In this document: positions 1 through 45,151 of the stretch, piece after piece | How the letters are laid out: each line of letters starts with the position of its first letter | How positions within the stretch are numbered: the first letter of the stretch is position 1 | Source of the DNA: an uncultured Bacteroidales bacterium | GTDB lineage: Bacteria; Bacteroidota; Bacteroidia; Bacteroidales; Paludibacteraceae | Direction: 5' to 3' | Assembly: GCA_902766045.1 (NCBI GenBank) | Contig: CACXCA010000065.1 | Coordinates: 1 to 45,151 of the forward strand | DNA length: 45,151 nucleotides | Made by a program: the position numbers and the translations under genes | Notes under the pieces: generated by a model | What the model was told of the DNA's origin: nothing | The model's database searches: none | Seen by the model: only the letters and a program-made list of their open reading frames with translations

Positions 1-3000
1 ATCAGGCACCTCAGACACTCCATGCTTGTCGTATGTACTACCGCATGGGAAGATGAAGACACCCGGTCCATCCACACCAGAAACCCAGTCTCTTGTTGCA
101 CCATACTCAAAATTATTATCCAGACTCATCACACCCACTTTGATGTAATTCAGACTGTTACATTTCTCAAACATGTTATTATAGCATCCATTCACCAACT
201 CTGTCGCCGGTAATTCTGGTGCAGTTGTCAGACTCGTACATCCTGAGAACATATAATAATAACAATAATCTGCCAAGGTAGTAGCTGGTAATTCGGGAGC
301 TTCCGTCAAAGATGAACATTCTGAGAACATTCCATCATAACAGCCATATGCCAAAGTTGTCGCAGGTAGTTCTGGTGCTTTTGTCAAACTTGTACATTCA
401 CCGAACATCCATCTATAGCACTCTCCAGATAGCGTCGTTGCAATTAACTTCGGTGCTTCTGTAAGACTCGTACAAGAAGAGAACATGGAAGAATAACAGG
501 CATTAGCCAATTGGGTCGCTGGTAGTTCAGGTGCCGTAACCAGACTTACACAGTCTTTAAACATAGAAGAATAACAACCAGGAGCCAATTCTGTAGCTGG
601 AAGCTTTGGTGCCTCAGTAAGATCTGAACAAAACTTAAACATAGATTCATAACATATGTCTGCCAACTTTGTAGCAGGCAATGCTGGTGCTTGTGTCAAA
701 GATGTGCACAGCGAGAACATAGATTCATAACAACTTTCTTTCAATGTAGTGGCCGGCAATTCCGGTGCTTGAATCAAAGATGAACATCCCACAAATAACT
801 TATAAAAGCAATATGCATTAGGAATTTCTGTTGTCTCTCCTACCCCATCAATCAGACTCATCACACTACCAGAAGCTGCAATCGAACCCGTCATTCCAAA
901 ATGAGTATAAATGCCAAGCATAATCATGTCTAGCGATGTTAGGTCTCCCACTAGTGAGAAACCGGATGCGTTATCACCTCGAAGATAAACTTTATCACCC
1001 ACAGAAGTCAAAACCACATGTTCTTTGGGCGCCAACACGTTCCAAGTACGTCCTCCATCTACAGAATACTGTACATCCGGAGCATTATCCATTTCATTCT
1101 CATACCACACTTCAGATCCAGCCTCCTCTGCTGTGAAACAAAGACACTTGCTAACATCCGTGATAGGGGTCAGTTCTTCTTCATATACTGCCGTATAATA
1201 GAACGTGTCGGGTTCTGGATGTACCGTCAGTTCCTTGTCCCAACCTTTGAAAACAAGTCCTTCACCGTAGGTCGGCGTTTCTCCTTTGTATTCAGCCACC
1301 ACATCACATGCGATGGTGTCTCGATACAACTCCCCACCGTCTGGATTCTGGAAGATGACAACAGGAGAACTGATGATCTTGAAATTAACGGGAACCTCTG
1401 ATATACCATGTTTATCATACTTACTACCGCAAGGGAAGATGAACGTACCCTCTTTCTTCACATCATAAACCCAATAGGATGAAGTTCCAAAACCATCCAA
1501 TGTCATGACACCCACCTTGATGTAAGTTAAGTTAGAACAACCACGAAACATAGAATAATAGCATTCATTAACCAATTCAGCAGCCGGTAATTCAGGTGCT
1601 TCCGTCAAACTCGTACAGCCATTGAACATATCATAATAACATCCGTCCATCAAAGTCGTTGCAGGTAATTCTGGTGCTTTCGTCAAACTTGAGCAACCAT
1701 AGAACATTCCATTATAACATCCAACCGCCAACGTTGTAGCTGGTAATTCAGGAGCTTCCGTCAAACTTGTACAATTATAGAACATACTATTATAACATCC
1801 TTTTGCCAAAGTCGTCGCAGGTAATTCAGGCGCATCGGTCAGACTTATACATTTATAGAACATCGATTCATAACATCCTTCCGTTAAAGTAGTTGCCGGC
1901 AATTCTGTAGTTTTGATCAACTTTGAACATTCAGAAAACATATCACTATAACAACTATCTGCCAAAGTAGTAGCAGGCAATTCAGGCATATCTGTCAATC
2001 TCGAGCAACGACTAAACATACCCATATAACATGCTTTTGACAAGGTAGTAGCAGGAAGTTCAGGTGCTTTCGTCAAAGATGCACATCCGCCAAACAAGTA
2101 ACGAAAACAAGATTCATTTGGAATAACGTTAGAAACGCCTTCCCCATCCAACAAACTCATCACACTTCCACTGGCTGCAATCATACCGGACATTTCAAAA
2201 AAAGTATAATCAGAATCTCCATGTGAGAATCCTTCTGGATTAATACCTTTAAAATATACTTTATCATCCACCGAATTTAAAACTACATGTTCATCTGCCG
2301 CCAACGGAATCCATGTTCGACCTTCATCTACAGAATACTGTATATCAGGAGCATTATTACCGTGGTTCTGACACCACACTTCAGAACCCTTTTCTGCTGC
2401 CGTAAAACAGAGACATTTGCTAACATCCGTGATAGGGGTCAGTTCTTCTTCATATACTGCTGTATAATAGAATGTATCTGGTTCCGGATGTATCGTCAGT
2501 TCTGGATCCCAACCTTTGAAGACAAGTCCTTCACCATAGCTTGGTGTCTCTCCCCTGTATTCAGCCACCACATCACAACCGATCGTGTCACGATACAACT
2601 CCTCACCGTCTGGGTTCTGAAAGACCACAACAGGCGAACTGATGATCTTGAAATTATCAGGAACCTCCGAAACACCATGTTTGTCATACTTGCTACCACA
2701 TGGGAAGATGAAGACACCTTCGCCATCGATACCTTTCACCCAATCTAATGTAGCTTCATCATCATTATCCAAGGACATGACACCTACTTTAATGTAGTTC
2801 AGATTTGTACATCCATTGAACATATTTTGGTAGCAACTAGACTTCAATTCTTTTGCTGGCAGTTCCGGTGCAGTAGATAGTCTCTTGCATCTTGCAAACA
2901 TTTCTTCATAACAAAAGGTTGATAAAACCTCAGCTGGCAATGCGGGAGCCTTTTCTAGATGGGAACAATCTGAAAACATACTAGAATAACAATCATCCTC

Positions 3001-6000
3001 CAACGTTGTGGCAGGTAATTCTGGAGCTTCTACTAAAGCATAACAATCCTTGAACATCATAGTATAACATGAAGTGGCCATCACAGTAGCTGGCAACACA
3101 GGTGCATCTGTCAAACTCGTACATCCACGGAACATATAACCATAACAAGCCTCTGCCAAGTTAGTAGCTGGCAGTTCTGGAACATCTACCAAATAATAAC
3201 AATCCGCGAACATGCCATAATAACAACGTGTAGCCAATGTTTTAGCTGGCAATGCTGGCGCCTTAGTTAATTTCACACACCCTGCAAACATAGCCACATA
3301 ACATTCCTCTGCCATTTGCAGAGCTGGCAACTCAGGTGCATATACCAGGTCATCACAGAATCTAAACATTTCTTCATAACAACCTCTCGTCAATGTAGTA
3401 GCAGGCAATTCTGGTGCCTTAACTAAAGAGAGACATCCTTCAAACAAAGAGGCGAAACAAAAATCATTTGGAATGACCGTAGAGGTACCTTCTCCATCAA
3501 CTAGACTCATCACACTACCACTGGCTGCAATTGAACCCGACATTCTAAATGTTGTCGATCTAGAAAGAACCTCACCATCCTCACTACGAGAAAATCCGTC
3601 AGGATTATCACCTTTGAAATAGACCTTATCATTTTCTGATTTCAACACAATATGTTCGTTCGGTGCCAACGGATTCCAAGTGCGACCTCCATCCAAAGAA
3701 TATTGTACATCAGGTCCCTCTTCAAATGTATTATTTTTATACCACACTTCTGATTCAGCCTTTTCTGCTGTAAAACAAAGCCAGTTACCAGACACTGGTT
3801 GATCTTCCTCATACACAGCTGTAAAATAATATGTATTAAGATCAGTTAAAACAGTCAGAGGTTTGTCCCATCCAACAAAAACCATTCCCTCTCCATACGT
3901 TGGTTCATCTCCGATATACTCAGGTATCACGTCACATGCTATTGTATCTCGATAAAGCTCCCTACCGTCTGGATTCTGGAAGACTACTATAGGAGAAGAT
4001 TGTATCTCGAAATTAACTGGCACTTCAGAATCTCCATGTTTATCATATTTGCTACCACAAGGGAAAACAAAAACGCCTGGGTTCTTTATAGCCACCACCC
4101 AGTTAAGTGTTGCTTCATACTCATTATCCAATGTATTTGCCCCCACCTTAATATAATTCAAATTATAACAGCCATTGAACATAAGAAAACAACTTTGCTC
4201 TGCAAAAGAGGTCATAGCTATTTCAGGCACCTTTTCCAAGTAGGTACATCCTGCAAACATTCCTGCGTAACAGAATGGCTTCAATATAGTAGCTGGTAAT
4301 ACAGGAGCCTCAACGATTGATGAGCAAGCAGTGAACATATATTCATAACAAGACCGTGACAATTCTTCAGCTGGTAATTCTGGAGGTGTTTGCATATTAC
4401 GACAACCTGCGAACATGACTGTATAACAACTATCCGCTAATGTCGTAGCAGGCAACGCAGGTGCCTCAACCAAACTTGAACATCCTGAGAACATTCCTGT
4501 ATAGCAGTTTCTTTCCAAATGAGTGGCTGGTAATGATGTTACCTCAGTCAAACTAGTACAATTGGTAAACATATACATATAAGCCGCAACAACCATATCT
4601 GTAGCTGTCAAATTCGGGGTTTTCGTCAGATTATGACATTCATTAAACATCGCACAATAACAACTATCCGCCAATGTCGTAGCAGGCAATGCAGGAGCCT
4701 CTGCTAATGAATAACAATCTCTGAACATTCCATAATAACATTCCCTTTCCATTTCTTCAGCTGGCAATGTTGGAGCTTTCGTAAGCTTCATACAATGCTG
4801 AAACATATCCTGATAGCATCGTTCCGCCATCGTGACAGCTGGTAATACAGGTGCTTCTGTCAAATCCTCACAATAAGCAAACATCTGTCGATAACACCCT
4901 TCTGTCAAAACAGTAGCCGACAACTCTGGTGCTGCTGTAAGATGCAGATTCTGGTAAAACAATCGATAAAAACAATATGGATTCGGAATCTCTGTTACAG
5001 TTCCCTCTCCATCAATCAAACTCATCACACTACCACTGACTGATAATTCATTATACGTTGTAAACCGAACTTGTGATTCCTCCGTAGAAAGTCCATCAGG
5101 ATTAATTCCTTTGAAATATACTTTTTCGCCCTTCGCTAATACTAATTCTACATTCGGAGCCAAATACTCCCACGTCTTTCCATTATCTACAGAATATTGC
5201 ATGTCAGGATGTCCCTCTCCATTAATTGTGTACCCGACACTACATTCTTCACCTTCTGCCGTGAAACATAACCAATTGTTATATAATGGATCCGATTTTT
5301 TCTCATACACAGCTTTATAATAATAGACATCTGGTTCGGTCAATATCGTCAGGTCTTTATCCCATCCGATAAATTCGTATGCGTCTCCCCTGCTCGGCGT
5401 ATCTCCCTTGTATTCTGGTACTACATCACATCCAACCGTATCACGCCACAACTCTGTTCCATCATAATTCTGGAAGACCACAATTGGAGAGGCAACGATA
5501 TCAAAATTTGTTGGAACTTCTGATGCTCCATGTTTATTATACTTACTACCACAAGGGAAAATGAAAACGCCTGGTCCATCTATACCTGAGACCCATTCTC
5601 TTGTCGCACTGACATCGTTATCTAATGTCATCACCCCAACCTTAATGTAGTTCAGATTTGTACATTCCTTAAACATATCTTTATAGCATGAAGAAACCAA
5701 CGTAGTAGCTGGCAACTCTGGAGCTTCGGTCAAACTTGTACAATAAGAAAACATCAACTCATAACAGAAGTTGGTTAATTCTTGAGCAGGCAATGCTGGT
5801 GCCTTGACTAAATTGGCACATCTACTAAACATATTAGCATAACATCTATATGTCAGTTCCGTAGCTGGCAATTCAGGGGCTTCTGTCAAATTTGCATTAT
5901 TGAACATATTCACATAACAAGATCCAGCCAATTTAAGAGCCGGCAATACTGGTGCCTTGGAGAGTTTACGGCAACCAGAGAACATGTTTCCATAGCAGAA

Positions 6001-9000
6001 ATCTGCCATCGTAGTAGCTGGTAATTCAGGGGCTTCTATTAGATTGGAGCATCCCAAGAACATAGATTCATAGCATCTCTCTGTAAGGTCCATAGCTGGC
6101 AAATTCGGAGCTTGTGTAAGAGAACCACATCCAACAAATAAATGGCTAAAACATCCCACACATGGAATGGTCGTTGTGCTACCTTCTTCGTCTATCAAAC
6201 TCATCACATTACCTGAGGCGGCGATAGATCCCTTCATCTGAAAATAGGTACATTCTAGATCTTTAGCATCCCTGATAGTAGCATTACCCTTGTCATGGGA
6301 AAATCCATCAGGATTATTACCTCGCACATAGACCTTAGCATCTTTTTTCAATTTAATATGTGTATCAGGTGTCCATTCTATCCATGTAACTCCACCATCT
6401 AATGAGTATTGTATATTAGGAGCATTATTTGCTCCATTCCCATACCAAACTTCAGAGTCATCCTTTCCTGCCGTGAAACAGAGCCATTTATTAGCTAAAG
6501 GATCCACAATCTCATCATATACTGCAGTATAGTAATAAACATCAGGGATCTTTATTTGTGTCAATTCCTTGTCCCATCCTCTAAAGGCATATCCAGCACC
6601 TATGGTTGGTATGTCGCCCCCGTACTCAGGAATCACATCACAGCTAATCGTGTCACGCCACAACTCCCGACCATCAGGATTCTGGAAAACAATAATTGGA
6701 GAACCTGTGATTGTAAAGTTTGTTGGCACCTCTGATTTCCCGTGTTTATTGTACTTACTACCACATGGGAAGATGAACTCACCCTCTCCTTCTATCCCAT
6801 ATACCCAATCTTCAGTAGGACTTAAAGTCATATCGGATGTCATGTCTAGACTCAATACGCCGACTTTGATGTAATTCAAGTTTTCACATCCATAGAACAT
6901 ACCATTATAGCATGCAGACTCCAGTTTTTCAGCAAGTAAATCAGGAGCCTTTTCCAAACTTGCACATCCCCTAAACATATCAAGATAACAAGCATACGTC
7001 AACTCTGTCGCAGGCAATTTAGGAGCCGATTTCAAATTAATGCATGAATTAAACATACCAGAATAGCATAACGGAGCCAACGCAGTAGATATAAGTATAG
7101 GTGCCTGAGTCAAATCCGTACAGCCTTGGAACATGCACTGATAACAACCGTCTTTCATAGTCCTAGCAGGCAATTCAGGTGCTGTCAAAAGAGACGTACA
7201 GCCTTGGAACATAAAATAATAACAATATTGTGCCAACGTTTCAGCTGGTAAAGCTGGTGCATCAGTCAAAGAGACACATTCGAAGAACATTGAAGCATAA
7301 CAATGATCATACATTACTGTGGCTGGCAAAATATCAGGTGCTTTTGTTAAATTTCTACAATACGCAAACATAGTACCATAGCATGCAGGAGCTAATTCCG
7401 TAGCTGGCAAGTCAGGCGTAGCCATAAGGCTCTCACAAGAAGCAAACATACTATTGTAACAATTCGTAGTCAACTGGGTAGCAGGCAATTCAGGTGCTAC
7501 AGTCAACCTCGAACAACCTTCAAACATCTCCTCATAGCATGATTTACTCAATGTTGTAGCTGGTAACTCAGGCGCCTGCGTAAGAGAACGACAGTATTTA
7601 AACAAATTAAGGAAGCAATAATCATTAGGTATCTCTTTCGAGACGCCACTTCCATCAATCAAACTCATCACACTACCGCTTGCCGCAATAGAACCCGTCA
7701 TAACAAACTGACTATAACTAGACAAATCATTAGAGAAACCTTTCGGATTATTTCCTCTCAAATAAACCTTGTCTCCTATTTCCGCTATCGTAACAACCTG
7801 GTCACCTATCATCGGTTGCCATGTTTCTCCGCCATCAAGAGAATATTCAACAGAAGGACTATTACCGTTTTCATTTAATAAATAAAAAGTAGAGTTGGTT
7901 TCTTCTGCTGTAAAGCAAAGCCAATTCGATGGGGCTTGTTGCCGATAAAGAGCCGTATAGCGATACTCTCCAGGCTTCGTAATTTCCGTTAATGTTTTAT
8001 TCCATCCTATAAACTCAAGTTCTTCAGGTTCCTCTGGAGCTGGTCCATTATATTCGGGAACAACCCCACAACTAACAGTATCCCGCCACAACTCTTCATC
8101 GTCAGAATACTGGAAAATCACAATGGCATGGCCGATGATTGTGAAATTATAAGGCACCTCAGATTCTCCGTGTTTGTTATATTTAGTTCCGCAAGGGAAT
8201 TCAAACCGTCCTTTCCCATTGATTTCGGACACCCAATTTTCGGTTGCATCCACCTCATTATCCAAGGACATAACACCCACTTTAATATAGTTGAGACCGG
8301 TACATCCTTTAAACATCTCACTATAACAGGACTCTACAAGAGATTCTGAAGGTAACTCAGGTGCCGTTGTCAGACTCGTACAACCAGAGAACATTTTCCT
8401 ATAACACTGCTTTTTCAATTCCATCGCCGGCAATTGTGGCGCTTCTGTCAAACTTGTACATTCAAGGAACATGCTATGATAACAACCATCAGCCAACTCC
8501 TCAGCTGGCAATGCAGGTGCCTTAACCAAACTTTTACACCCATGGAACATATCTGTATAGCAGTCCTGCTCCATTTGCGTAGCTGGTAAGACTGGAGCTT
8601 CTGTCAAATTTATACACTCTTGGAACATACCCTGATAACAATGTTTCATCAATTCTGTAGCAGGCAATTCAGGTGCTTTTGTGAAACTTTCACATCTAAT
8701 GAACATACAAAAATAACAAGCAGAAGCCAATTGCGTAGCAGGCAACGCAGGTGCTTCCTTCATGCTAACACACCCATTGAACATATAATAATAACATGAA
8801 GCAGCCAACTCGGTTGCTGGTAACACAGGAGCCTCAGCAAGACTGGAACAGTCAGAGAACATCAAGGAATAACACGATGAAGTCAACTCGGTTGCTGGCA
8901 ATTCTGGTGCTCTTGTAAGAGCGGAACAATCTTTAAATAAGCAACGGAAACAATTAGAATTTGGAATCTTAGTGGAAGTACCTTCTCCATCGACCAGACT

Positions 9001-10449
9001 CATCACACTTCCACTGGCAGCAACACTTCCACCCATATAGAACGTGGTATAATCATCATCATTAAAGGAGAACCCTTTAGGATTAGATCCTTTAATGAAA
9101 ACTCTATCACCTTCTTTTCCCAACGTCACTCTTTCATTGGGAGGTAACGGGTACCAGCTTTTTCCTTCATCTATTGAATACTGTATGTATGGACTATTTC
9201 CCCCTTTATTTTCATATCCAATATAAGAACCATCCACATTAGCTGTGAAACATAGCCAATTACCTGGAGCTGGTGCTTCCACTTTTTTATATTCAGCAAT
9301 ATAATAATATATATCTGGCTCCGTAAGAGGCGTTAATTCCTTGTTCCACTTCACAAACTGATGTTCATCATCCAAGACAGGATCTGTATCTCCATAATTA
9401 GGTGTTTCTCCACATGCGATGGTGTCTGCTCTCAAAACTGTTCCATCAGGATTTTGAAAGACGACGACTGGAGAATTGATAATCGTAAAATCCACTGGAA
9501 CTGCCGAGGCTCCACGCTTATCATAATCGCTACCACAAGGGAAGATAAATACACCATCCTTCACACCTTCCACATAACTCATCCAATTCGAGGTTGCACC
9601 GTTTGAACCGTTATAATCTAAACTAATACAGCCTACTTTTACATAATTCAAACTAGTACATATTTGAAACATTTCACTGTAGCAACCATTCGCAAATGTT
9701 TCCGCTGGCAAATAGACTACTTTTCTTAAACTGGAACATAGTGTAAACATTCCACTATAACAAGAATCAGCCAACTCGGTTGCTGGTAATAAAGGTGTTT
9801 CTTCCAAGGACATACACATTCCAAACATACCCGAGTAACATGATTTCGCCAATTTTTTTGCAGGTAATTCTGGAGCTTCTGAGAAAGAACAAGACCAAAA
9901 CATCAACATATAACAGTTAGGCTCCATCTCTGTAGCAGGTAATTCTGGAGCTACTTTCAAACTATAACAGTTTTCAAACATTGAAGCATAACAAAAGGCT
10001 TTCAATGTCGTTGCAGGCAATTCTGGGGCTGTTGTAACTTCACATCCCTTAAATAGACTATAAAAACAATATTCATTCGGTATGACAGTGGATTCCCCCT
10101 CTCCATCAATCAAACTCATCACACTACCCGAAACGGTTGCCGATTTACTAATAGAAAATTGAGTAAATGATTTATCACTAAAAGAAAATCCATCGGGATT
10201 ATCACCCTTTACATATAATTTTTCATCTTGCATCAAGCTTATCGGTTCGGTCCATTCTATCCAATTCGTCCCATCATAAGAATAACGCACATCAGGTTTA
10301 TGCTCTTCATCAGCAGATGAATATGAAATTTTAACATAATCTTCATTTGCTGTAAAACAAAGATAATTCGCGGCTGTTCCTGTGAAATAACTAAAAAAAG
10401 CGAAAAGGAATGCAACAACATAGTTGCAACTCATACGTGTGTTTATCAT
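1..10449 (-). CDS. Giant secreted BspA-like leucine-rich repeat surface protein, 3' end outside window
   Basis: Open frame of 3483 codons from ATG at 10449 (alternative ATG at 10434) to the left edge; no stop is seen and all eight module starts are in the same frame. The N-terminus is a signal peptide (hydrophobic run VVAFLFAFFSYFTG). The mature chain is built from modules that begin with LCFTA at residues 30, 399, 844, 1323, 1727, 2224, 2680 and 3103. Each module has: a domain of about 90 residues (YSxDGGxTW, KGxNPDGFS, then GSVMSLIDGEG and IPN); 5 to 10 repeats of 26 residues with the pattern APELPATTLAxxCYxxMFxxCxSLT; a capping NYIKVGVMSLDN segment; FPCGSKYDKHGxSEVP; and an InlB/Flg_new-like segment (VVFQNPDG, GWDKxLT, YYTAVYEE). 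Repeat counts are 5, 8, 9, 6, 10, 8, 7 and 8. LRR proteins with this LPATTLA repeat are common in gut Bacteroidota; an adhesion or surface role is inferred. The C-terminal anchoring signal is not visible. Confidence 0.93.
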   Translation of the reverse strand, partial: MINTRMSCNYVVAFLFAFFSYFTGTAANYLCFTANEDYVKISYSSADEEHKPDVRYSYDGTNWIEWTEPISLMQDEKLYVKGDNPDGFSFSDKSFTQFSISKSATVSGSVMSLIDGEGESTVIPNEYCFYSLFKGCEVTTAPELPATTLKAFCYASMFENCYSLKVAPELPATEMEPNCYMLMFWSCSFSEAPELPAKKLAKSCYSGMFGMCMSLEETPLLPATELADSCYSGMFTLCSSLRKVVYLPAETFANGCYSEMFQICTSLNYVKVGCISLDYNGSNGATSNWMSYVEGVKDGVFIFPCGSDYDKRGASAVPVDFTIINSPVVVFQNPDGTVLRADTIACGETPNYGDTDPVLDDEHQFVKWNKELTPLTEPDIYYYIAEYKKVEAPAPGNWLCFTANVDGSYIGYENKGGNSPYIQYSIDEGKSWYPLPPNERVTLGKEGDRVFIKGSNPKGFSFNDDDYTTFYMGGSVAASGSVMSLVDGEGTSTKIPNSNCFRCLFKDCSALTRAPELPATELTSSCYSLMFSDCSSLAEAPVLPATELAASCYYYMFNGCVSMKEAPALPATQLASACYFCMFIRCESFTKAPELPATELMKHCYQGMFQECINLTEAPVLPATQMEQDCYTDMFHGCKSLVKAPALPAEELADGCYHSMFLECTSLTEAPQLPAMELKKQCYRKMFSGCTSLTTAPELPSESLVESCYSEMFKGCTGLNYIKVGVMSLDNEVDATENWVSEINGKGRFEFPCGTKYNKHGESEVPYNFTIIGHAIVIFQYSDDEELWRDTVSCGVVPEYNGPAPEEPEELEFIGWNKTLTEITKPGEYRYTALYRQQAPSNWLCFTAEETNSTFYLLNENGNSPSVEYSLDGGETWQPMIGDQVVTIAEIGDKVYLRGNNPKGFSNDLSSYSQFVMTGSIAASGSVMSLIDGSGVSKEIPNDYCFLNLFKYCRSLTQAPELPATTLSKSCYEEMFEGCSRLTVAPELPATQLTTNCYNSMFASCESLMATPDLPATELAPACYGTMFAYCRNLTKAPDILPATVMYDHCYASMFFECVSLTDAPALPAETLAQYCYYFMFQGCTSLLTAPELPARTMKDGCYQCMFQGCTDLTQAPILISTALAPLCYSGMFNSCINLKSAPKLPATELTYACYLDMFRGCASLEKAPDLLAEKLESACYNGMFYGCENLNYIKVGVLSLDMTSDMTLSPTEDWVYGIEGEGEFIFPCGSKYNKHGKSEVPTNFTITGSPIIVFQNPDGRELWRDTISCDVIPEYGGDIPTIGAGYAFRGWDKELTQIKIPDVYYYTAVYDEIVDPLANKWLCFTAGKDDSEVWYGNGANNAPNIQYSLDGGVTWIEWTPDTHIKLKKDAKVYVRGNNPDGFSHDKGNATIRDAKDLECTYFQMKGSIAASGNVMSLIDEEGSTTTIPCVGCFSHLFVGCGSLTQAPNLPAMDLTERCYESMFLGCSNLIEAPELPATTMADFCYGNMFSGCRKLSKAPVLPALKLAGSCYVNMFNNANLTEAPELPATELTYRCYANMFSRCANLVKAPALPAQELTNFCYELMFSYCTSLTEAPELPATTLVSSCYKDMFKECTNLNYIKVGVMTLDNDVSATREWVSGIDGPGVFIFPCGSKYNKHGASEVPTNFDIVASPIVVFQNYDGTELWRDTVGCDVVPEYKGDTPSRGDAYEFIGWDKDLTILTEPDVYYYKAVYEKKSDPLYNNWLCFTAEGEECSVGYTINGEGHPDMQYSVDNGKTWEYLAPNVELVLAKGEKVYFKGINPDGLSTEESQVRFTTYNELSVSGSVMSLIDGEGTVTEIPNPYCFYRLFYQNLHLTAAPELSATVLTEGCYRQMFAYCEDLTEAPVLPAVTMAERCYQDMFQHCMKLTKAPTLPAEEMERECYYGMFRDCYSLAEAPALPATTLADSCYCAMFNECHNLTKTPNLTATDMVVAAYMYMFTNCTSLTEVTSLPATHLERNCYTGMFSGCSSLVEAPALPATTLADSCYTVMFAGCRNMQTPPELPAEELSRSCYEYMFTACSSIVEAPVLPATILKPFCYAGMFAGCTYLEKVPEIAMTSFAEQSCFLMFNGCYNLNYIKVGANTLDNEYEATLNWVVAIKNPGVFVFPCGSKYDKHGDSEVPVNFEIQSSPIVVFQNPDGRELYRDTIACDVIPEYIGDEPTYGEGMVFVGWDKPLTVLTDLNTYYFTAVYEEDQPVSGNWLCFTAEKAESEVWYKNNTFEEGPDVQYSLDGGRTWNPLAPNEHIVLKSENDKVYFKGDNPDGFSRSEDGEVLSRSTTFRMSGSIAASGSVMSLVDGEGTSTVIPNDFCFASLFEGCLSLVKAPELPATTLTRGCYEEMFRFCDDLVYAPELPALQMAEECYVAMFAGCVKLTKAPALPAKTLATRCYYGMFADCYYLVDVPELPATNLAEACYGYMFRGCTSLTDAPVLPATVMATSCYTMMFKDCYALVEAPELPATTLEDDCYSSMFSDCSHLEKAPALPAEVLSTFCYEEMFARCKRLSTAPELPAKELKSSCYQNMFNGCTNLNYIKVGVMSLDNDDEATLDWVKGIDGEGVFIFPCGSKYDKHGVSEVPDNFKIISSPVVVFQNPDGEELYRDTIGCDVVAEYRGETPSYGEGLVFKGWDPELTIHPEPDTFYYTAVYEEELTPITDVSKCLCFTAAEKGSEVWCQNHGNNAPDIQYSVDEGRTWIPLAADEHVVLNSVDDKVYFKGINPEGFSHGDSDYTFFEMSGMIAASGSVMSLLDGEGVSNVIPNESCFRYLFGGCASLTKAPELPATTLSKACYMGMFSRCSRLTDMPELPATTLADSCYSDMFSECSKLIKTTELPATTLTEGCYESMFYKCISLTDAPELPATTLAKGCYNSMFYNCTSLTEAPELPATTLAVGCYNGMFYGCSSLTKAPELPATTLMDGCYYDMFNGCTSLTEAPELPAAELVNECYYSMFRGCSNLTYIKVGVMTLDGFGTSSYWVYDVKKEGTFIFPCGSKYDKHGISEVPVNFKIISSPVVIFQNPDGGELYRDTIACDVVAEYKGETPTYGEGLVFKGWDKELTVHPEPDTFYYTAVYEEELTPITDVSKCLCFTAEEAGSEVWYENEMDNAPDVQYSVDGGRTWNVLAPKEHVVLTSVGDKVYLRGDNASGFSLVGDLTSLDMIMLGIYTHFGMTGSIAASGSVMSLIDGVGETTEIPNAYCFYKLFVGCSSLIQAPELPATTLKESCYESMFSLCTSLTQAPALPATKLADICYESMFKFCSDLTEAPKLPATELAPGCYSSMFKDCVSLVTAPELPATQLANACYSSMFSSCTSLTEAPKLIATTLSGECYRWMFGECTSLTKAPELPATTLAYGCYDGMFSECSSLTEAPELPATTLADYCYYYMFSGCTSLTTAPELPATELVNGCYNNMFEKCNSLNYIKVGVMSLDNNFEYGATRDWVSGVDGPGVFIFPCGSTYDKHGVSEVPD

Positions 10450-39363: not shown

Positions 39364-39390
39364 AAAAAAACAACGAGGATTATTCGTTTT
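39364..39390 (-). promoter_or_regulatory. Hairpin with T run in the metK leader (candidate attenuator)
   Basis: On the minus strand AACGA-ATAATCC-TCGTT is followed by GTTTTTTT (T run at 39370-39364). Its 5' arm touches the last bases of the SAM-II-type aptamer. The stem is short, so it may be a weak terminator acting with the aptamer, or nothing. Confidence 0.4.
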
Positions 39391-39431
39391 AGCATTTTTT
39401 TGAGTGGTTGCAAGCAGTCAAATCTATCCAC
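39385..39431 (-). promoter_or_regulatory. SAM-II-type riboswitch aptamer upstream of metK
   Basis: On the minus strand the 47 bases read GTGG, ATA, GATTTGACTGC, TTGCAA, CCAC, an A-rich stretch, then GCTAAAACG. The GTGG/CCAC stem, the GATTTG segment in the loop, TTGCAA directly before the closing arm and the downstream GCTAAA are the hallmarks of the SAM-II (SAM-alpha) pseudoknot aptamer. It starts about 10 bases after the predicted transcription start and lies about 85 bases before the ATG. The neighbouring gene makes SAM, which fits feedback control. Confidence 0.85.
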
Positions 39432-39447
39432 ATATTTTTTATGGGTG

Positions 39448-40795: not shown

Positions 40796-41323
40796 ATGAC
40801 ACCCCACAAAACACAAACCAGCCCCCTTATCCCCCTTGTGATCCTATGTATCATGGGATGGGCGCTCCTATTCACCAGCACCTCCTGCAAGAGGATAAAA
40901 AAGGAGATGAAGGAACTGATCATCAACGGAGGAAAGGAAATAGACGCTCAAATCTCTTCTCTCTACCCCGAATTAGCCGACACCGCATGTGTTGGCATGA
41001 AATGCGACAACGGCTTTAGCTACCAGTATTGGTTTAGGTATAAAGCCACCCCATCCACGGTGGAGACGGCGTTGATGACTCACATTTGTGAATTCGTAGA
41101 GATAGAGCCTGACATCACACTCATACCGTGTGACAGAGAGTATGCCATAAATCATTTCCAACTTAGGGAGAGTACCGATTTCAATCACTTTGCAGAATGG
41201 AAAGCTGCGCCAGAAGATCATCTTGTCTATTATCACTGTAGGAGGACCCCACTCAATCATGTGTTAGTGTTCGATACAATTGAGGGGTATGCTTATCATT
41301 ATATCAGTGAGTTTAGAGAATAA
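40796..41323 (+). CDS. Small membrane-anchored or lipoprotein, unknown function
   Basis: 175 residues. One N-terminal hydrophobic segment (LIPLVILCIMGWALLFTS) ends near Cys 31 (STSCKR), either a membrane anchor or an imperfect lipobox. The soluble part carries conserved-looking patterns (CVGMKCDNGFSYQYWFRY, EDHLVYYHCRRTPLNHVLVF) but I know no family. It precedes cas9 in the same direction, but the tracrRNA unit lies between them, so a functional link is not supported. Confidence 0.7.
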   Translation: MTPHKTQTSPLIPLVILCIMGWALLFTSTSCKRIKKEMKELIINGGKEIDAQISSLYPELADTACVGMKCDNGFSYQYWFRYKATPSTVETALMTHICEFVEIEPDITLIPCDREYAINHFQLRESTDFNHFAEWKAAPEDHLVYYHCRRTPLNHVLVFDTIEGYAYHYISEFRE

Positions 41324-41326
41324 ATG

Positions 41327-41400
41327 AAGGCGACTCCCAAAAGAGCCGCCTTAAATGTTTTCACAACGGAATAATCCTTATTGTGAATTGCTTCAATTTT
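41327..41400 (-). ncRNA. Candidate tracrRNA of the type II-C CRISPR-Cas9 system
   Basis: Read on the minus strand: an anti-repeat segment (GAAGCAATTCACAA), then TAAGGATTATTCCGTTGTG, which can form a GGA/TCC-type nexus hairpin and resembles the CAATAAGG region of known II-C tracrRNAs, then AAAACATTT, then the GC-rich hairpin AAGGCGGCTC-TTTTGG-GAGTCGCCTT (41352-41327) as terminator. The reverse complement of the anti-repeat (TTGTGAATTGCTTC) resembles the beginning of repeats known from Bacteroidota II-C arrays (GTTGTGATTTGCTTTC). A promoter (41407-41437) is correctly placed. Length about 74 bases. The terminator hairpin could also end the 40796 transcript. Confidence 0.75.
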
Positions 41401-41402
41401 GT

Positions 41403-41434
41403 GTTGCTAAATTAATTGTTTTTTTCTACCTTGC
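41403..41434 (+). promoter_or_regulatory. cas9: Promoter of cas9
   Basis: GTTG (41403-41406), 20 bases, TACCTTGC (41427-41434), a partial -7 match. Leader of about 22 bases, A-rich before the ATG at 41463. It occupies almost the same bases as the tracrRNA promoter on the other strand. Confidence 0.4.
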
Positions 41435-41437
41435 AAA
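41407..41437 (-). promoter_or_regulatory. Promoter of the candidate tracrRNA
   Basis: On the minus strand TTTG (41437-41434), 19 bases, TAATTTAG (41414-41407), one mismatch to TAnnTTTG. Predicted start near 41400, at the head of the anti-repeat. Confidence 0.5.
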
Positions 41438-41462
41438 ACAAAAAAAAGAAAATTTATACATT

Positions 41463-44400
41463 ATGAAGAAAATATTAGGACTAGACTTAGGTACAAATAG
41501 CATTGGATGGGCGGTGGTGAATGCCGAAACAGAGACTCGAATGGTAGAGAACGAATACCAAAGTGGGGAGAAAACATACTTGAAACCGATAGGCATTAGT
41601 TCCGCAGGTAGTAGAATTATTCCAATGTCAGCAGACATATTAGGAGATTTTGACAAAGGAAATTCTATTTCCCAAACTGCAGATCGCACAAAATCCAGAA
41701 TGGCAAGACGAATCAGAGAAAGGAACCTACTTCGTCGGGAAAGGCTTTTACGAGTATTAAAAAAAATAGGATTCTTTCCAGAACACTTTGCCAATCAAAT
41801 AAATGAATACGGGAAATTCCTTAACTACGATGAACCAAAACTTGCATGGAAGAAAAATCCAGAGGGGAAAAACGAATTCCTTTTTCAACAATCCTTCAAT
41901 GAAATGTTGGAAGATTTCAAGAAGAATCAACCCGAACTAGTTCCTGTTAAAGAGAATGGAGAACAAAGGAAAGTGCCATACGATTGGACAATCTATTATC
42001 TACGCAAAAAAGCTCTCACTCAAAAAATTTCAAAAGAAGAACTCGCATGGATTTTGTTACAGTTTAACCAAAAGCGAGGATATTACCAATTACGTGGCGA
42101 AGAAGATGAAGACGACAACTCAAAATTAGTTGAATATCTTGAGCAAGAAGTTGTAAGAGTTGAAGCCACCAATGAGAAAAAAGGCGAAGATATCTGGTAC
42201 AATGTCTATTTGAAAAACGGAATGATTTATAGACGAACAAGTCGAATTCCACTTGATTGGGAAGGAAAAGTAAAGGAATTCATTGTCACAACTGACCTTG
42301 AAAAAGATGGCACACCTAAAAAGGACAAAGATGGCAACATCAAACGTTCGTTCCGTGCACCAAAAGAAGATGATTGGACTTTGCTGAAAAAGAAAACCGA
42401 ATATGACATTGACAACAGCCATAAAACCGTTGGTTGCTACATTTACGATGCCTTGCTTCAGAATCCAAATCAGAAGATTATCGGCAAACTTGTCCGCACC
42501 GTTGAGAGAAAATACTACAAAGATGAAATAAAGGAAATCCTTGATGTACAAAAGGATTTGATACCTGAACTCAAAGATGAAAATCTGTACAAAGCTTGTA
42601 TTGAGGAACTTTATTCCAACAATGATGCACATCGGAACAATATGGCAAAACCTGATTTTGCAAATTTGTTCATCAATGATATTTTGTTCTATCAGCGTCC
42701 TCTCAAGAGCAAAAAATCATTGATAAGCGACTGCCCTTATGAATCTCATTTCGACAAAGACGGGAACGAGCACCCAATAAAATGCATTGCTAAATCAAAT
42801 CCGTTATTTCAAGAGTTCCGTTTGTGGCAGTTCGTGCAGAACCTAAGAATCTATCAAAGAGAAAAAGAGATAGATAACAAACTATTCACCGATGTTGATG
42901 TCACAAACGAAAAGTTGAAAACAGAGGATGATTACATAAAACTATTCGAATGGCTTAACGACCGAACATCAATTAAGCAAGACACATTGCTAAATTCTTA
43001 TTTCAAAATCAAAAAGGAGAAGGGGAAAGACCTATATCCATACCGTTGGAATTACGTTGAGGAAAAGGAATATCCCTGCAACGAAACACGCGCTGAGATT
43101 CTCAAAGGGTTGGATAAATGTAGCATACCCCACGATTTTCTGACAAAAGAACGAGAAATGATGCTTTGGCACATTCTTTATTCTGTCGAGGATAAAATTG
43201 AGATTAGCAAGGCACTGAAAAAATATGCCGAAAAGAATGATTTGCCAGAATCATTTGTTGAAGTATTTGGCAAAATCAAACCTTTTGCCAAAGAATATGG
43301 ATCATATTCTGAAAAGGCTATCAAGAAGTTACTTCCTCTGATGCGAGTTGGCAAATATTGGAGTATCGATGCCTTTGATGTGAAAACCAAAGAACGTATC
43401 GAAAAAATTATTACAGGAGAGTATGACGAGAACATAAAGAATCGCGTTCGTGAAAAAGCAATCAATCTGACAGACGAAACACATTTCAAAGGGTTGCCTG
43501 TTTGGTTGGCTTGCTACATTGTTTACGACCGCCACTCGGAAGCCAAAGATATTGACAAATGGGATAAGCCTGAAGATATTGATAATTATCTAAAGAATTT
43601 CAAACAACATTCGTTACGCAATCCGATTGTGGAGCAAGTTGTTACAGAAACGTTACGCACTGTGCGTGATATTTGGAAGCAGGAAGGACAGATTGATGAG
43701 ATTCACATTGAACTTGGTCGAGAAATGAAAAATCCCGCAGACAAACGTAAGCGAATGACCGAAAACATTTTGCAAAATGAAAATACAAACCTGCGTATCA
43801 AGGCAATGCTTCTTGAGTTTATGAATCCAGAAATGGGTATTGAAAACGTTCGTCCGTATTCACCAAGCCAGCAGGATATTTTGCGCATATACGAAGAAAA
43901 TGCACTTGATAATTTAAAGAAGGAAGACCCTGAATTTGATTTTATCAATAAAATATCAAAGACTGCCCAACCGTCAAAATCTGACATTGTGCGTTATAAA
44001 CTGTGGCTTGAGCAAAAATATCGTTCACCCTATACAGGCGAAATGATTCCACTTGCAAAACTCTTTACTTCTGCCTACGAAATTGAGCACGTGATTCCTC
44101 AATCACGCTACTTTGATGATTCGTTTAGCAACAAAGTGATTTGCGAAGCCGAAGTAAACAAACTGAAAAACAGACAATTGGGGTTTGAATTTATCAAGAA
44201 TCACAAAGGCGAGAAAGTTCAAATCAGTCAAGGAAATACGGTTGAGATTCTTTCTGTCGAGGCATTCGAAAAGTTTGTGAAAGACCACTACAATAACAAC
44301 CGAGCCAAAATGAAGAAGTTGTTGATGGACGATATACCCGATGGTTTTATTGAGCGCCAGCTTAATGATAGCCGTTATATCAGCAAACTTGTAAAAGGAT

Positions 44401-45151
44401 TGTTATCCAACATTGTTCGTGAGAAGTTACCTAATGGCGAATACGAGCAAGAAGCAGTTTCCAAAAATCTAATCTCTTGCAATGGCTCGATAACAGACCG
44501 TTTGAAAAAGGATTGGGGAATGAACGACGTTTGGAATAGCATTGTTTTACCACGATTCAAGAGATTGAATGAATTGACAGGGAAAAAATGTTTTACTGCA
44601 ATAAGCTCAGAAGGTCACGAAATACCAGCTATGCCGCTTGAATTGCAAAGAGGGTTCAATAAAAAACGTATTGACCACCGCCACCACGCTATGGATGCAA
44701 TTGTGATTGCTTGCGCTACCCGCGACCACATTAACCTACTTAATAATGAAGCTGCACATTCAAAACACAATGCAAACCGCTGCCAACTTCAGCGAAAACT
44801 GCGTCGATTTGAAACTAAGTTAATTGACGGAAAAGAGATAGAAGTTGCTAAAGAATTTTTGAAACCGTGGGATAATTTTACGTTTGACGCAAAAGAAAAA
44901 TTGGGAAATATTATTGTTAGCTTCAAACAGAATTTGCGGGTAATCAACAAAACAACCAATCAGTATCAGCATTATGATAGTGATGGAAAGAAAGTTTTTG
45001 TAAAGCAAAAGAAGGGTGATAGCTGGGCTATCCGTAAATCAATGCACAAAGACACTGTATTTGGTGAAGTGAATTTGCGATTTAAAAAGACGGTTTCGTT
45101 AAACGAAGCATTGAAAAATCCAAAAGCGATAGTAAACAAGGATTTCAAAGC
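41463..45151 (+). CDS. cas9: CRISPR-associated endonuclease Cas9 (type II-C), 3' end outside window
   Basis: 1229 codons are visible and the frame runs off the right edge. Cas9 is the RNA-guided nuclease of type II CRISPR immunity. All catalytic parts are present: RuvC-I GLDLGTNSIGWA (Asp 8), an arginine-rich bridge helix (RMARRIRERNLLRRERLLR region, about 79-98, with KSR before it), RuvC-II IHIELGREMKN (Glu 750), HNH EIEHVIPQSRYFDDSFSNK (His 876) and RuvC-III HRHHAMDAIVIACAT (His 1075, Asp 1078). The recognition lobe between about 100 and 740 is long, as in the large Bacteroidota type II-C forms of roughly 1400 residues or more. The PAM-interacting C-terminus is only partly visible. No stop or frameshift is seen. 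cas1, cas2 and the array would be expected past the edge. Confidence 0.98.
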   Translation, partial: MKKILGLDLGTNSIGWAVVNAETETRMVENEYQSGEKTYLKPIGISSAGSRIIPMSADILGDFDKGNSISQTADRTKSRMARRIRERNLLRRERLLRVLKKIGFFPEHFANQINEYGKFLNYDEPKLAWKKNPEGKNEFLFQQSFNEMLEDFKKNQPELVPVKENGEQRKVPYDWTIYYLRKKALTQKISKEELAWILLQFNQKRGYYQLRGEEDEDDNSKLVEYLEQEVVRVEATNEKKGEDIWYNVYLKNGMIYRRTSRIPLDWEGKVKEFIVTTDLEKDGTPKKDKDGNIKRSFRAPKEDDWTLLKKKTEYDIDNSHKTVGCYIYDALLQNPNQKIIGKLVRTVERKYYKDEIKEILDVQKDLIPELKDENLYKACIEELYSNNDAHRNNMAKPDFANLFINDILFYQRPLKSKKSLISDCPYESHFDKDGNEHPIKCIAKSNPLFQEFRLWQFVQNLRIYQREKEIDNKLFTDVDVTNEKLKTEDDYIKLFEWLNDRTSIKQDTLLNSYFKIKKEKGKDLYPYRWNYVEEKEYPCNETRAEILKGLDKCSIPHDFLTKEREMMLWHILYSVEDKIEISKALKKYAEKNDLPESFVEVFGKIKPFAKEYGSYSEKAIKKLLPLMRVGKYWSIDAFDVKTKERIEKIITGEYDENIKNRVREKAINLTDETHFKGLPVWLACYIVYDRHSEAKDIDKWDKPEDIDNYLKNFKQHSLRNPIVEQVVTETLRTVRDIWKQEGQIDEIHIELGREMKNPADKRKRMTENILQNENTNLRIKAMLLEFMNPEMGIENVRPYSPSQQDILRIYEENALDNLKKEDPEFDFINKISKTAQPSKSDIVRYKLWLEQKYRSPYTGEMIPLAKLFTSAYEIEHVIPQSRYFDDSFSNKVICEAEVNKLKNRQLGFEFIKNHKGEKVQISQGNTVEILSVEAFEKFVKDHYNNNRAKMKKLLMDDIPDGFIERQLNDSRYISKLVKGLLSNIVREKLPNGEYEQEAVSKNLISCNGSITDRLKKDWGMNDVWNSIVLPRFKRLNELTGKKCFTAISSEGHEIPAMPLELQRGFNKKRIDHRHHAMDAIVIACATRDHINLLNNEAAHSKHNANRCQLQRKLRRFETKLIDGKEIEVAKEFLKPWDNFTFDAKEKLGNIIVSFKQNLRVINKTTNQYQHYDSDGKKVFVKQKKGDSWAIRKSMHKDTVFGEVNLRFKKTVSLNEALKNPKAIVNKDFK

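Follow-up and report, generated by a model that had tools for sequence, protein, structure and literature searches.

A probable type II-C tracrRNA gene opposite cas9 in an uncultured Bacteroidales bacterium, and signs of cas9 exchange behind a constant guide RNA

What is encoded in the short gap in front of the cas9 gene at the right end of this contig, and has that cas9 always stood beside it? The window analyzed here, that is, the whole stretch of 45,151 nucleotides, is an entire contig (C65) of a 3.35 Mb assembly in 83 contigs (GCA_902766045.1). A first-pass annotation had placed in the gap, at 41327-41400, an anti-repeat, a nexus and a terminator hairpin on the minus strand in the order of a type II-C tracrRNA. 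We have found all of them there, on that strand and in that order; the location was right, and the unit reaches somewhat further, to approximately 41323-41408. We consider it very probable that 41402-41323 of the minus strand encodes the tracrRNA of a II-C CRISPR-Cas9 system such as Bacteroidota have, in a locus that has taken part in cas9 exchange. The identity as a tracrRNA can be read from the sequence: the segment lies head-to-head with cas9, its anti-repeat fits the genome's own repeat, and the pairing partners, the nexus and the terminator are conserved.

The predicted tracrRNA is about 80 nt long (41323-41402, minus strand), as indicated by a covariance model match, the fold and the conservation of its core in relatives; its 5' end would lie a few nucleotides past the -7 box of a putative promoter, and its 3' end was placed at a U-rich tail. 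The anti-repeat (41381-41402, minus) is followed by the nexus hairpin UUCACAAU-AA-GGA-UUAU-UCC-GUUGUGAA (41360-41387, minus), recognized by its fold and by pairing kept in relatives; AATAAGG and the hairpin both fall within 41387-41360. Next comes a terminator hairpin of 11 pairs (41327-41352, minus), past which the U-tract is imperfect, CATTTATT. The core is 77 nt from the cas9 start (ATG at 41463) and on the opposite strand. Folding of 41325-41410 (minus) gave -28.1 kcal/mol (z -4.66), and none of 200 shuffles was as low.

The covariance search that had been proposed as a check was made with two kinds of model. Rfam returned no tracrRNA family, either at the gathering score over the whole window or at E values up to 5 over 41250-41500. 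A model built from 30 relatives, with the window left out and same-genus relatives included, found 41408-41323 (minus) with 87.8 bits and an E value of 1e-24, its second-best match in the window scoring 12.9 bits. Across these 30 relatives 96.6% of the cells of the nexus stem were paired, versus 32-48% in slid controls. One nexus pair had a compensatory change from U-A to A-U in 5 of the 30; 8 of the 11 pairs are invariant, so covariation support within the nexus is thin. The 3' arm of the nexus, GUUGUGA, equals the first 7 nt of the repeat, and thus a free tracrRNA could, as we infer, mask the end of its own anti-repeat until displaced by a crRNA. Five loci (L041, L042, L044, L045 and L051) have A-U instead of U-A as the outer nexus pair (ACACAAT with GTTGTGT or GATGTGT), and L048 has the same A-U pattern with a nearby repeat that still reads GTTGTGA. 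L072 (genome G541) has a tracr core without the usual anti-repeat, and a repeat-like stretch lies directly upstream.

The cas9 gene itself (41463-45149, plus strand) had been described as intact. Actually, the contig ends inside it after 1229 codons; in 19 of the 20 relatives retrieved through Cas9 similarity the gene has 1464-1612 codons (the other, L028, stops at 1018). The part that is present matches TIGR01865 (E 3e-114), PF18541 and PF13395, and in a motif alignment the RuvC-I, RuvC-II, HNH and RuvC-III motifs are all there; the catalytic motifs are kept in all 12 Cas9s aligned. The nearest solved chain is CbCas9 (8iyq and others), with 1326 bits over residues 2-1209, and this match together with TIGR01865 gives a Cas9 of the II-C kind. 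A locus of Chryseobacterium (L030), which we take to be the source genus of CbCas9, shares the core of the window's tracrRNA and the start of its repeat. CbCas9 is a II-C enzyme, treated together with PcrIIC1 in PMC13153721; the comparison with it concerns a Cas9 that in the window comes without its C-terminus.

The array had to be sought outside the window. When the genome was searched for GTTGTGANTTGCTTTC with up to one mismatch, two places were found, on contigs C7 and C71; the C7 match, with one mismatch, is inside an ordinary gene with no array and was discarded. The search thus yielded a single repeat of this type for the whole genome; it stands at the end of C71, with its first base 65 nt from the contig end, and starts GTTGTGAATTGCTTTC. 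Read from the outside in, the contig opens with a truncated copy of the repeat, which a spacer of about 31 nt separates from a complete copy, GTTGTGAATTGCTTTCAATTTTGTAATTTAGCGTCAACAAAAACAG; beyond this copy the DNA no longer belongs to an array. A 32-nt piece of the repeat, allowing up to three mismatches, recurred at just these two places at the end of C71. The start of the repeat, GTTGTGAATTGCTTTCAATTTTG, had been foretold from the anti-repeat with hardly a letter wrong, even as to the bulge. Contrary to what had been expected, the window alone does not give the guide, since the repeat is on another contig. Repeat positions 2-24 align with 41381-41402 (in plus-strand view) in 22 of 23 columns; the single gap, of 1 nt, corresponds to a bulge on the repeat side, and the score is 20. 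An array repeat lacking complementarity to this segment had been named as the result that would count against the proposal, and the C71 repeat is complementary. Over 2000 Markov-1 randomisations of the intergenic stretch 41324-41462 the scores averaged 11.0 and went no higher than 18, and 18 was also the highest in 20 randomisations of the whole window, so that a score of 20 never occurred.

By analogy with other type II systems, the crRNA would be a spacer joined to the repeat's 5' portion, GUUGUGAAUUGCUUUCAAUUUUGU of the repeat would pair with the anti-repeat, and Cas9 would bind the resulting duplex together with the AAGG nexus and the hairpins, cutting DNA that matches the spacer. The tracrRNA would offer a ready guide scaffold for the window's Cas9. 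The searched part of the whole spacer (29 of about 31 nt) had no exact match among viral contigs. Beside the last repeat of C71 there is a long palindrome (L005, 5817-5777), AAAATAAAAATTGCACC...GGGTGCAATTTTTATTTTA, that by eye looks like a terminator or leader.

In five loci of the same genus (L065-L069) the gene order is cas9, cas1, cas2 and then an array with 6-24 repeat copies. The repeat of C71 and its flank align to the far array end of L067 (77%, 176 columns) and L068 (76%, 206 columns), so that the end of C71 is probably the distal end of the array of the window's system. From this alignment and the gene order of L065-L069, the likely arrangement is C65, a gap, and then C71 reversed. 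In L065-L069 and L105 the crRNA strand is that of cas9, while it is opposite in 37 of the 43 loci where both strands are known; the same-strand arrays of these six are an array inversion.

The system had also been called possibly complete, and here the assembly fell short: neither the C-terminus of Cas9 nor a II-C cas1 was found in it, and there are two repeat copies only. With the Cas9 C-terminus of a relative as query the genome gave no match, in a search run without a positive control; the Cas1 of a relative gave only a weak match, 39% over about 100 residues, to the cas1 of another system. The same genome has a type I-B cas1 with cas3 nearby on C16 (L031) and a second cas1 on C3 (L032), where a TIGR02221 CRISPR protein is encoded nearby, as is a RecD2-like helicase; both cas1 genes were rejected as the missing II-C cas1, belonging to other systems. 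Since neither part was found, the locus may be broken, or its assembly may be incomplete. A decayed or orphan remnant, in which a relic repeat and a hairpin sit beside a defunct cas9, would account for a contig that ends inside cas9, for the lack of a II-C cas1 in the assembly and for just two repeat copies. We find it improbable: the breaks coincide with the ends of contigs, and one of these ends lies within the array, where repeats would be expected to interrupt an assembly; the reading frame of cas9 stays open for 1229 codons and keeps all four motifs; and the five same-genus loci, which have cas1, cas2 and 6-24 repeat copies, share the tracr segment unchanged or almost unchanged.

To place the tracrRNA gene among its relatives we used a set of 69 loci including the window, all with the tracr core; the 68 relatives are 48 loci fetched for having this core and 20 found by Cas9 similarity. 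Among the latter the core was present in 20 of 20 and an array was found by script in 17. Of 200 genomes of the family, 75 have the core when up to two mismatches are allowed, as do 9 of 16 in the genus, the window's own genome included. It is opposite to cas9 in 57 of the 58 loci where both were found, L026 being the exception. Repeats and anti-repeats of the same locus fit each other better than swapped ones, with mean scores of 19.74 vs. 14.52 (47 loci, 43 distinct pairs), and the own mean was reached by none of 20,000 permutations. The own anti-repeat was best or joint best in 21 of the 43 distinct pairs, no more, because many repeats are alike. An earlier set of 28 loci and 23 distinct pairs had given 18.13 vs. 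13.85, again with none of 20,000 permutations; the poorest fit in that set, between array and tracrRNA of one locus, was that of L048, and the short loci L047, L048 and L061 of that set were left out of the larger one.

These figures also bear on the idea that the hairpin is nothing but a terminator of the upstream gene, working in both directions, and that chance produced the anti-repeat match. An ORF of 175 aa (40796-41323, plus strand), without any NCBIfam match, ends 4 nt short of the terminator hairpin, which is on the opposite strand, and the stem could terminate both ways. Yet none of the 2000 randomisations equalled the anti-repeat score, repeats and anti-repeats covary over 43 pairs, and the nexus stands beside cas9 in all 20 relatives found by Cas9 alone, which leaves this explanation hardly credible.

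We had been told to expect an uncharacterised system, and this did not hold, as the RNA family is published and the close relative CbCas9 has solved structures. PMC9067536 describes CRISPRCas_38, a II-C tracrRNA with 578 of its 599 instances in Bacteroidetes, typically within 100 bases upstream of cas9, and reports that a single tracrRNA family was in Rfam and that models fail to cover the diversity. The window's RNA shares the phylum, the II-C type, the intergenic position at most 100 bases upstream of cas9 and an anti-repeat to II-C repeats, and by the published description it is almost surely a member of this family. This kind of tracrRNA is thus already in print and ordinary for the phylum. 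CRISPRCas_38 is presented in the available text of PMC9067536 without treatment of promoters (the word is absent from its main text) or of cas9 exchange.

How tracrRNA and crRNAs are transcribed is a second matter that the locus raises. Promoters of Bacteroidota have -33 and -7 elements, the latter with the consensus TAnnTTTG. On the minus strand a putative tracrRNA promoter has the -7 box TAATTTAG at 41407-41414, with 5 of the 6 letters of TAnnTTTG, and a TTTG of the -33 type at 41434-41437, 19 nt before it; transcription would start from this promoter (41437-41407). In Neisseria meningitidis II-C there is likewise a promoter in each repeat, which gives short crRNAs, although the promoter consensus and the repeat sequence are others. 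Here TAnnTTTG is complete (6/6) at repeat positions 23-28 in 38 of 42 distinct repeats and has 5/6 letters in the remaining four, versus a mean of 0.20 complete boxes (maximum 3) in shuffles of the repeat 3' part, and a TTG at repeat positions 2-4 precedes the box by 18-23 nt. Among 68 distinct tracr upstreams 54 had 6/6, 11 had 5/6 and 3 had fewer; in shuffles complete boxes averaged 0.98 and boxes with 5 or more letters 14.23. A phylum-wide sample had the array pattern in 22 of 395 genomes, and the repeats of the 17 among the matches listed comprised 3 complete boxes (against a shuffle mean of 0.09 and a maximum of 3), 9 with 5/6 and 5 weaker ones. All these box counts are inflated by relatedness. 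A sigma-70 scan found 2 sites, compared with a shuffle mean of 1.2 (sd 1.2).

The window's strain has TAATTTAG, one letter off the consensus, both in the repeat and in the tracr promoter. The two forms are mixed in the genus, with TAATTTAG in the repeat and TATATTTG at the tracrRNA of L065, and TACTTTTG in the repeat and TAATTTAG at the tracrRNA of L066. As TAnnTTAG and TAnnTTTG trade places in this way, TAnnTTAG is probably a working variant. A reading of TAATTTAG as a sign of decay was dropped, given that same-genus loci mix both forms at the same places and TAnnTTAG recurs in distant repeats.

Since each repeat would thus have the same kind of promoter as the tracrRNA, crRNAs could start repeat by repeat. 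Alternatively, as in II-A, a single long leader transcript could supply them all, with the TAnnTTTG of the repeats a result of shared descent or a by-product of Cas1-Cas2 recognition. Repeats of related lineages are related, and 5 of the 17 listed phylum-wide repeats have no good box; PMC5006608, as far as its available text goes, found no promoter in the repeats of Riemerella anatipestifer. On the other hand the box is constant and its flanks variable, and a distance of 18-23 nt from the TTG fits the promoter spacing. Repeat-encoded promoters of the TTG type have moreover been proposed for F. columnare and F. psychrophilum (PMC8092290, PMC10309648). We regard the leader transcript as possible but the less probable of the two, and lean towards transcription from within the repeats. 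Those Flavobacterium II-C systems, including that of Fp2Cas9, resemble ours in the order tracrRNA, cas9, cas1, cas2, array as well as in the proposed TTG promoter, and both TAnnTTTG and the TTG -33 element appear in the two papers; the difference is that, in their available text, the TTG alone is named in the repeat, with no -7 box. In the literature searched, TAnnTTTG was found together with CRISPR and crRNA in PMC10309648 only, where the parts available apply the motif to the cas9 gene.

The comparison within the genus addresses the second half of our question. The window shares a 52-nt tracr segment letter by letter with L065, L066, L067 and L068; the identity of this segment is 96% in L069, 94% in L070 and 85% in L071. 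The Cas1 proteins of L065-L069 are 83-99% identical (99% in the pairs L067/L068 and L066/L069; L070 and L071 have partial Cas1 frames only), but their Cas9s are 34-45% identical over approximately the first 1229 residues, with 35-38% for L067/L068, depending on the cuts, and 35% for L066/L069. The four Cas9s scanned among them (L065, L066, L067 and L069) all match TIGR01865. The window's Cas9 is 76% identical to that of L068, 45% to L065 and 32-36% to L066, L067, L069 and L070, and the best tblastn segment of L071 is 76% identical to it. The most similar Cas9 of those aligned, with 86%, is that of L011, from another lineage and with a tracrRNA of 90% identity. As the tracr segment is 96-100% identical in L065-L069 while four of the Cas9s are 32-45% identical to the window's and the fifth 76%, and as the 86% Cas9 belongs to another lineage, cas9 was most likely exchanged into the window's locus, between the tracrRNA and cas1.

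The boundaries in the DNA point in the same direction. A block 91.5% identical to L065 (40459-41518) runs through the tracrRNA gene and ends at cas9 codon 18-19, followed by short patches only, and its end at about 41518 is likely the left edge of the exchange, the right edge lying outside the assembly. Between L067 and L068 the identity is 95.2% through the tracrRNA to cas9 nucleotide 61, there is no similar block inside cas9, and a second similar stretch (95.0%) begins 138 nt before cas1. For L066 and L069 the left block (87.1%) stops at cas9 nucleotide 104, and similarity returns, at 97.8%, 15 nt ahead of cas1. In seven of eight such swap pairs the left block ends at cas9 nucleotide 29-104 (one block is just 30 nt long and others are down to 70% identical), L103/L104 having none, and in all eight the right block begins 0-791 nt before cas1. 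L066 has two extra ORFs of 88 and 275 aa between cas9 and cas1, the larger with no NCBIfam match, where L069, with a cas1 99% identical, has just 234 nt.

For a wider comparison we took the 48 relatives with both cas9 and cas1 (46 without near-duplicates; the counts use 48), a set that excludes the window, which has no cas1. Cas1 was at least 80% identical in 46 pairs, and in 22 of these Cas9 was below 55%. Mantel correlations were 0.50 for Cas1-tracr (0/5000 permutations), 0.02 for Cas9-tracr (1789/5000) and 0.11 for Cas9-Cas1 (241/5000), so that similarity of the tracrRNA tracks Cas1 and not Cas9. Restricting the tracrRNA to the 27 letters outside the search core gave 0.48, 0.03 and 0.11, respectively, and the mean proportion of these letters shared was 78% at Cas9 identities below 40% and 79% at 60% or above. 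The 30 loci found by tracrRNA gave 0.55, 0.06 and -0.01, with 22 of 32 close-Cas1 pairs swapped, versus 0.49, 0.41 and 0.58 and none of 12 in the 18 loci found by Cas9. A Cas9-tracr correlation, found only within the set selected by Cas9 similarity, was not retained as a general pattern; the parts travel together inside one Cas9 clade, so it is exchange across clades that decouples them. Clustering by single linkage at 50% gave six Cas9 clusters, five of which are contained in the genus Cas1 cluster L065-L069; of the other Cas1 clusters, two contain three and two Cas9 clusters and three contain one.

Individual swaps may owe their appearance to chimeric assembly, locus by locus, and some of the relatives' genomes are incomplete. 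As a general cause chimeras are opposed by the repetition of the swaps in several Cas1 groups and by their clean edges. Exchange of cas9 is the reading we keep, and it suggests that the group retains one guide RNA and repeatedly replaces the Cas9 that uses it. Extending this to the II-C systems of Bacteroidota, we lean towards a model, with a good deal of reservation, in which the guide RNA (tracrRNA and repeat) stays on the adaptation side and cas9 would be a plug-in, swapped time and again by recombination between the conserved tracrRNA or RuvC-I start and the cas1 side, so that Cas9s about 35% identical would read closely similar tracrRNAs, identical inside one genus, and the same stored spacers, and a single type of dual-RNA would serve at least five or six deep Cas9 clades.

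According to the parts of PMC10309648 available, one cas9 was replaced between tracrRNA and cas1; the exchange described here, with its likely edge at about 41518, would extend this single case to several groups. PMC3936727, in the portion consulted, holds that Cas9 and dual-RNA coevolved and that exchange occurs only among close relatives. A constant guide RNA with exchanged Cas9s is at odds with a simple coevolution of the two and fits poorly with that rule: proteins of about 35% identity would all need to recognize a nearly identical tracrRNA, as the structure of the loci leads us to infer that they do. The prediction is that one sgRNA can drive Cas9s about 35% identical. If true, this would contradict the restriction of exchange to close relatives, and a lineage could change its PAM or escape anti-CRISPRs with its spacer memory kept.

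Two further features were noted elsewhere in the window. A SAM-II riboswitch at 39379-39437 (minus strand; 66.7 bits, E 8e-11) was the sole Rfam listing, and the first 10,449 nucleotides (1-10449, minus) are occupied by the gene of a giant protein, with an open frame of at least 3483 codons that runs off the left contig end.
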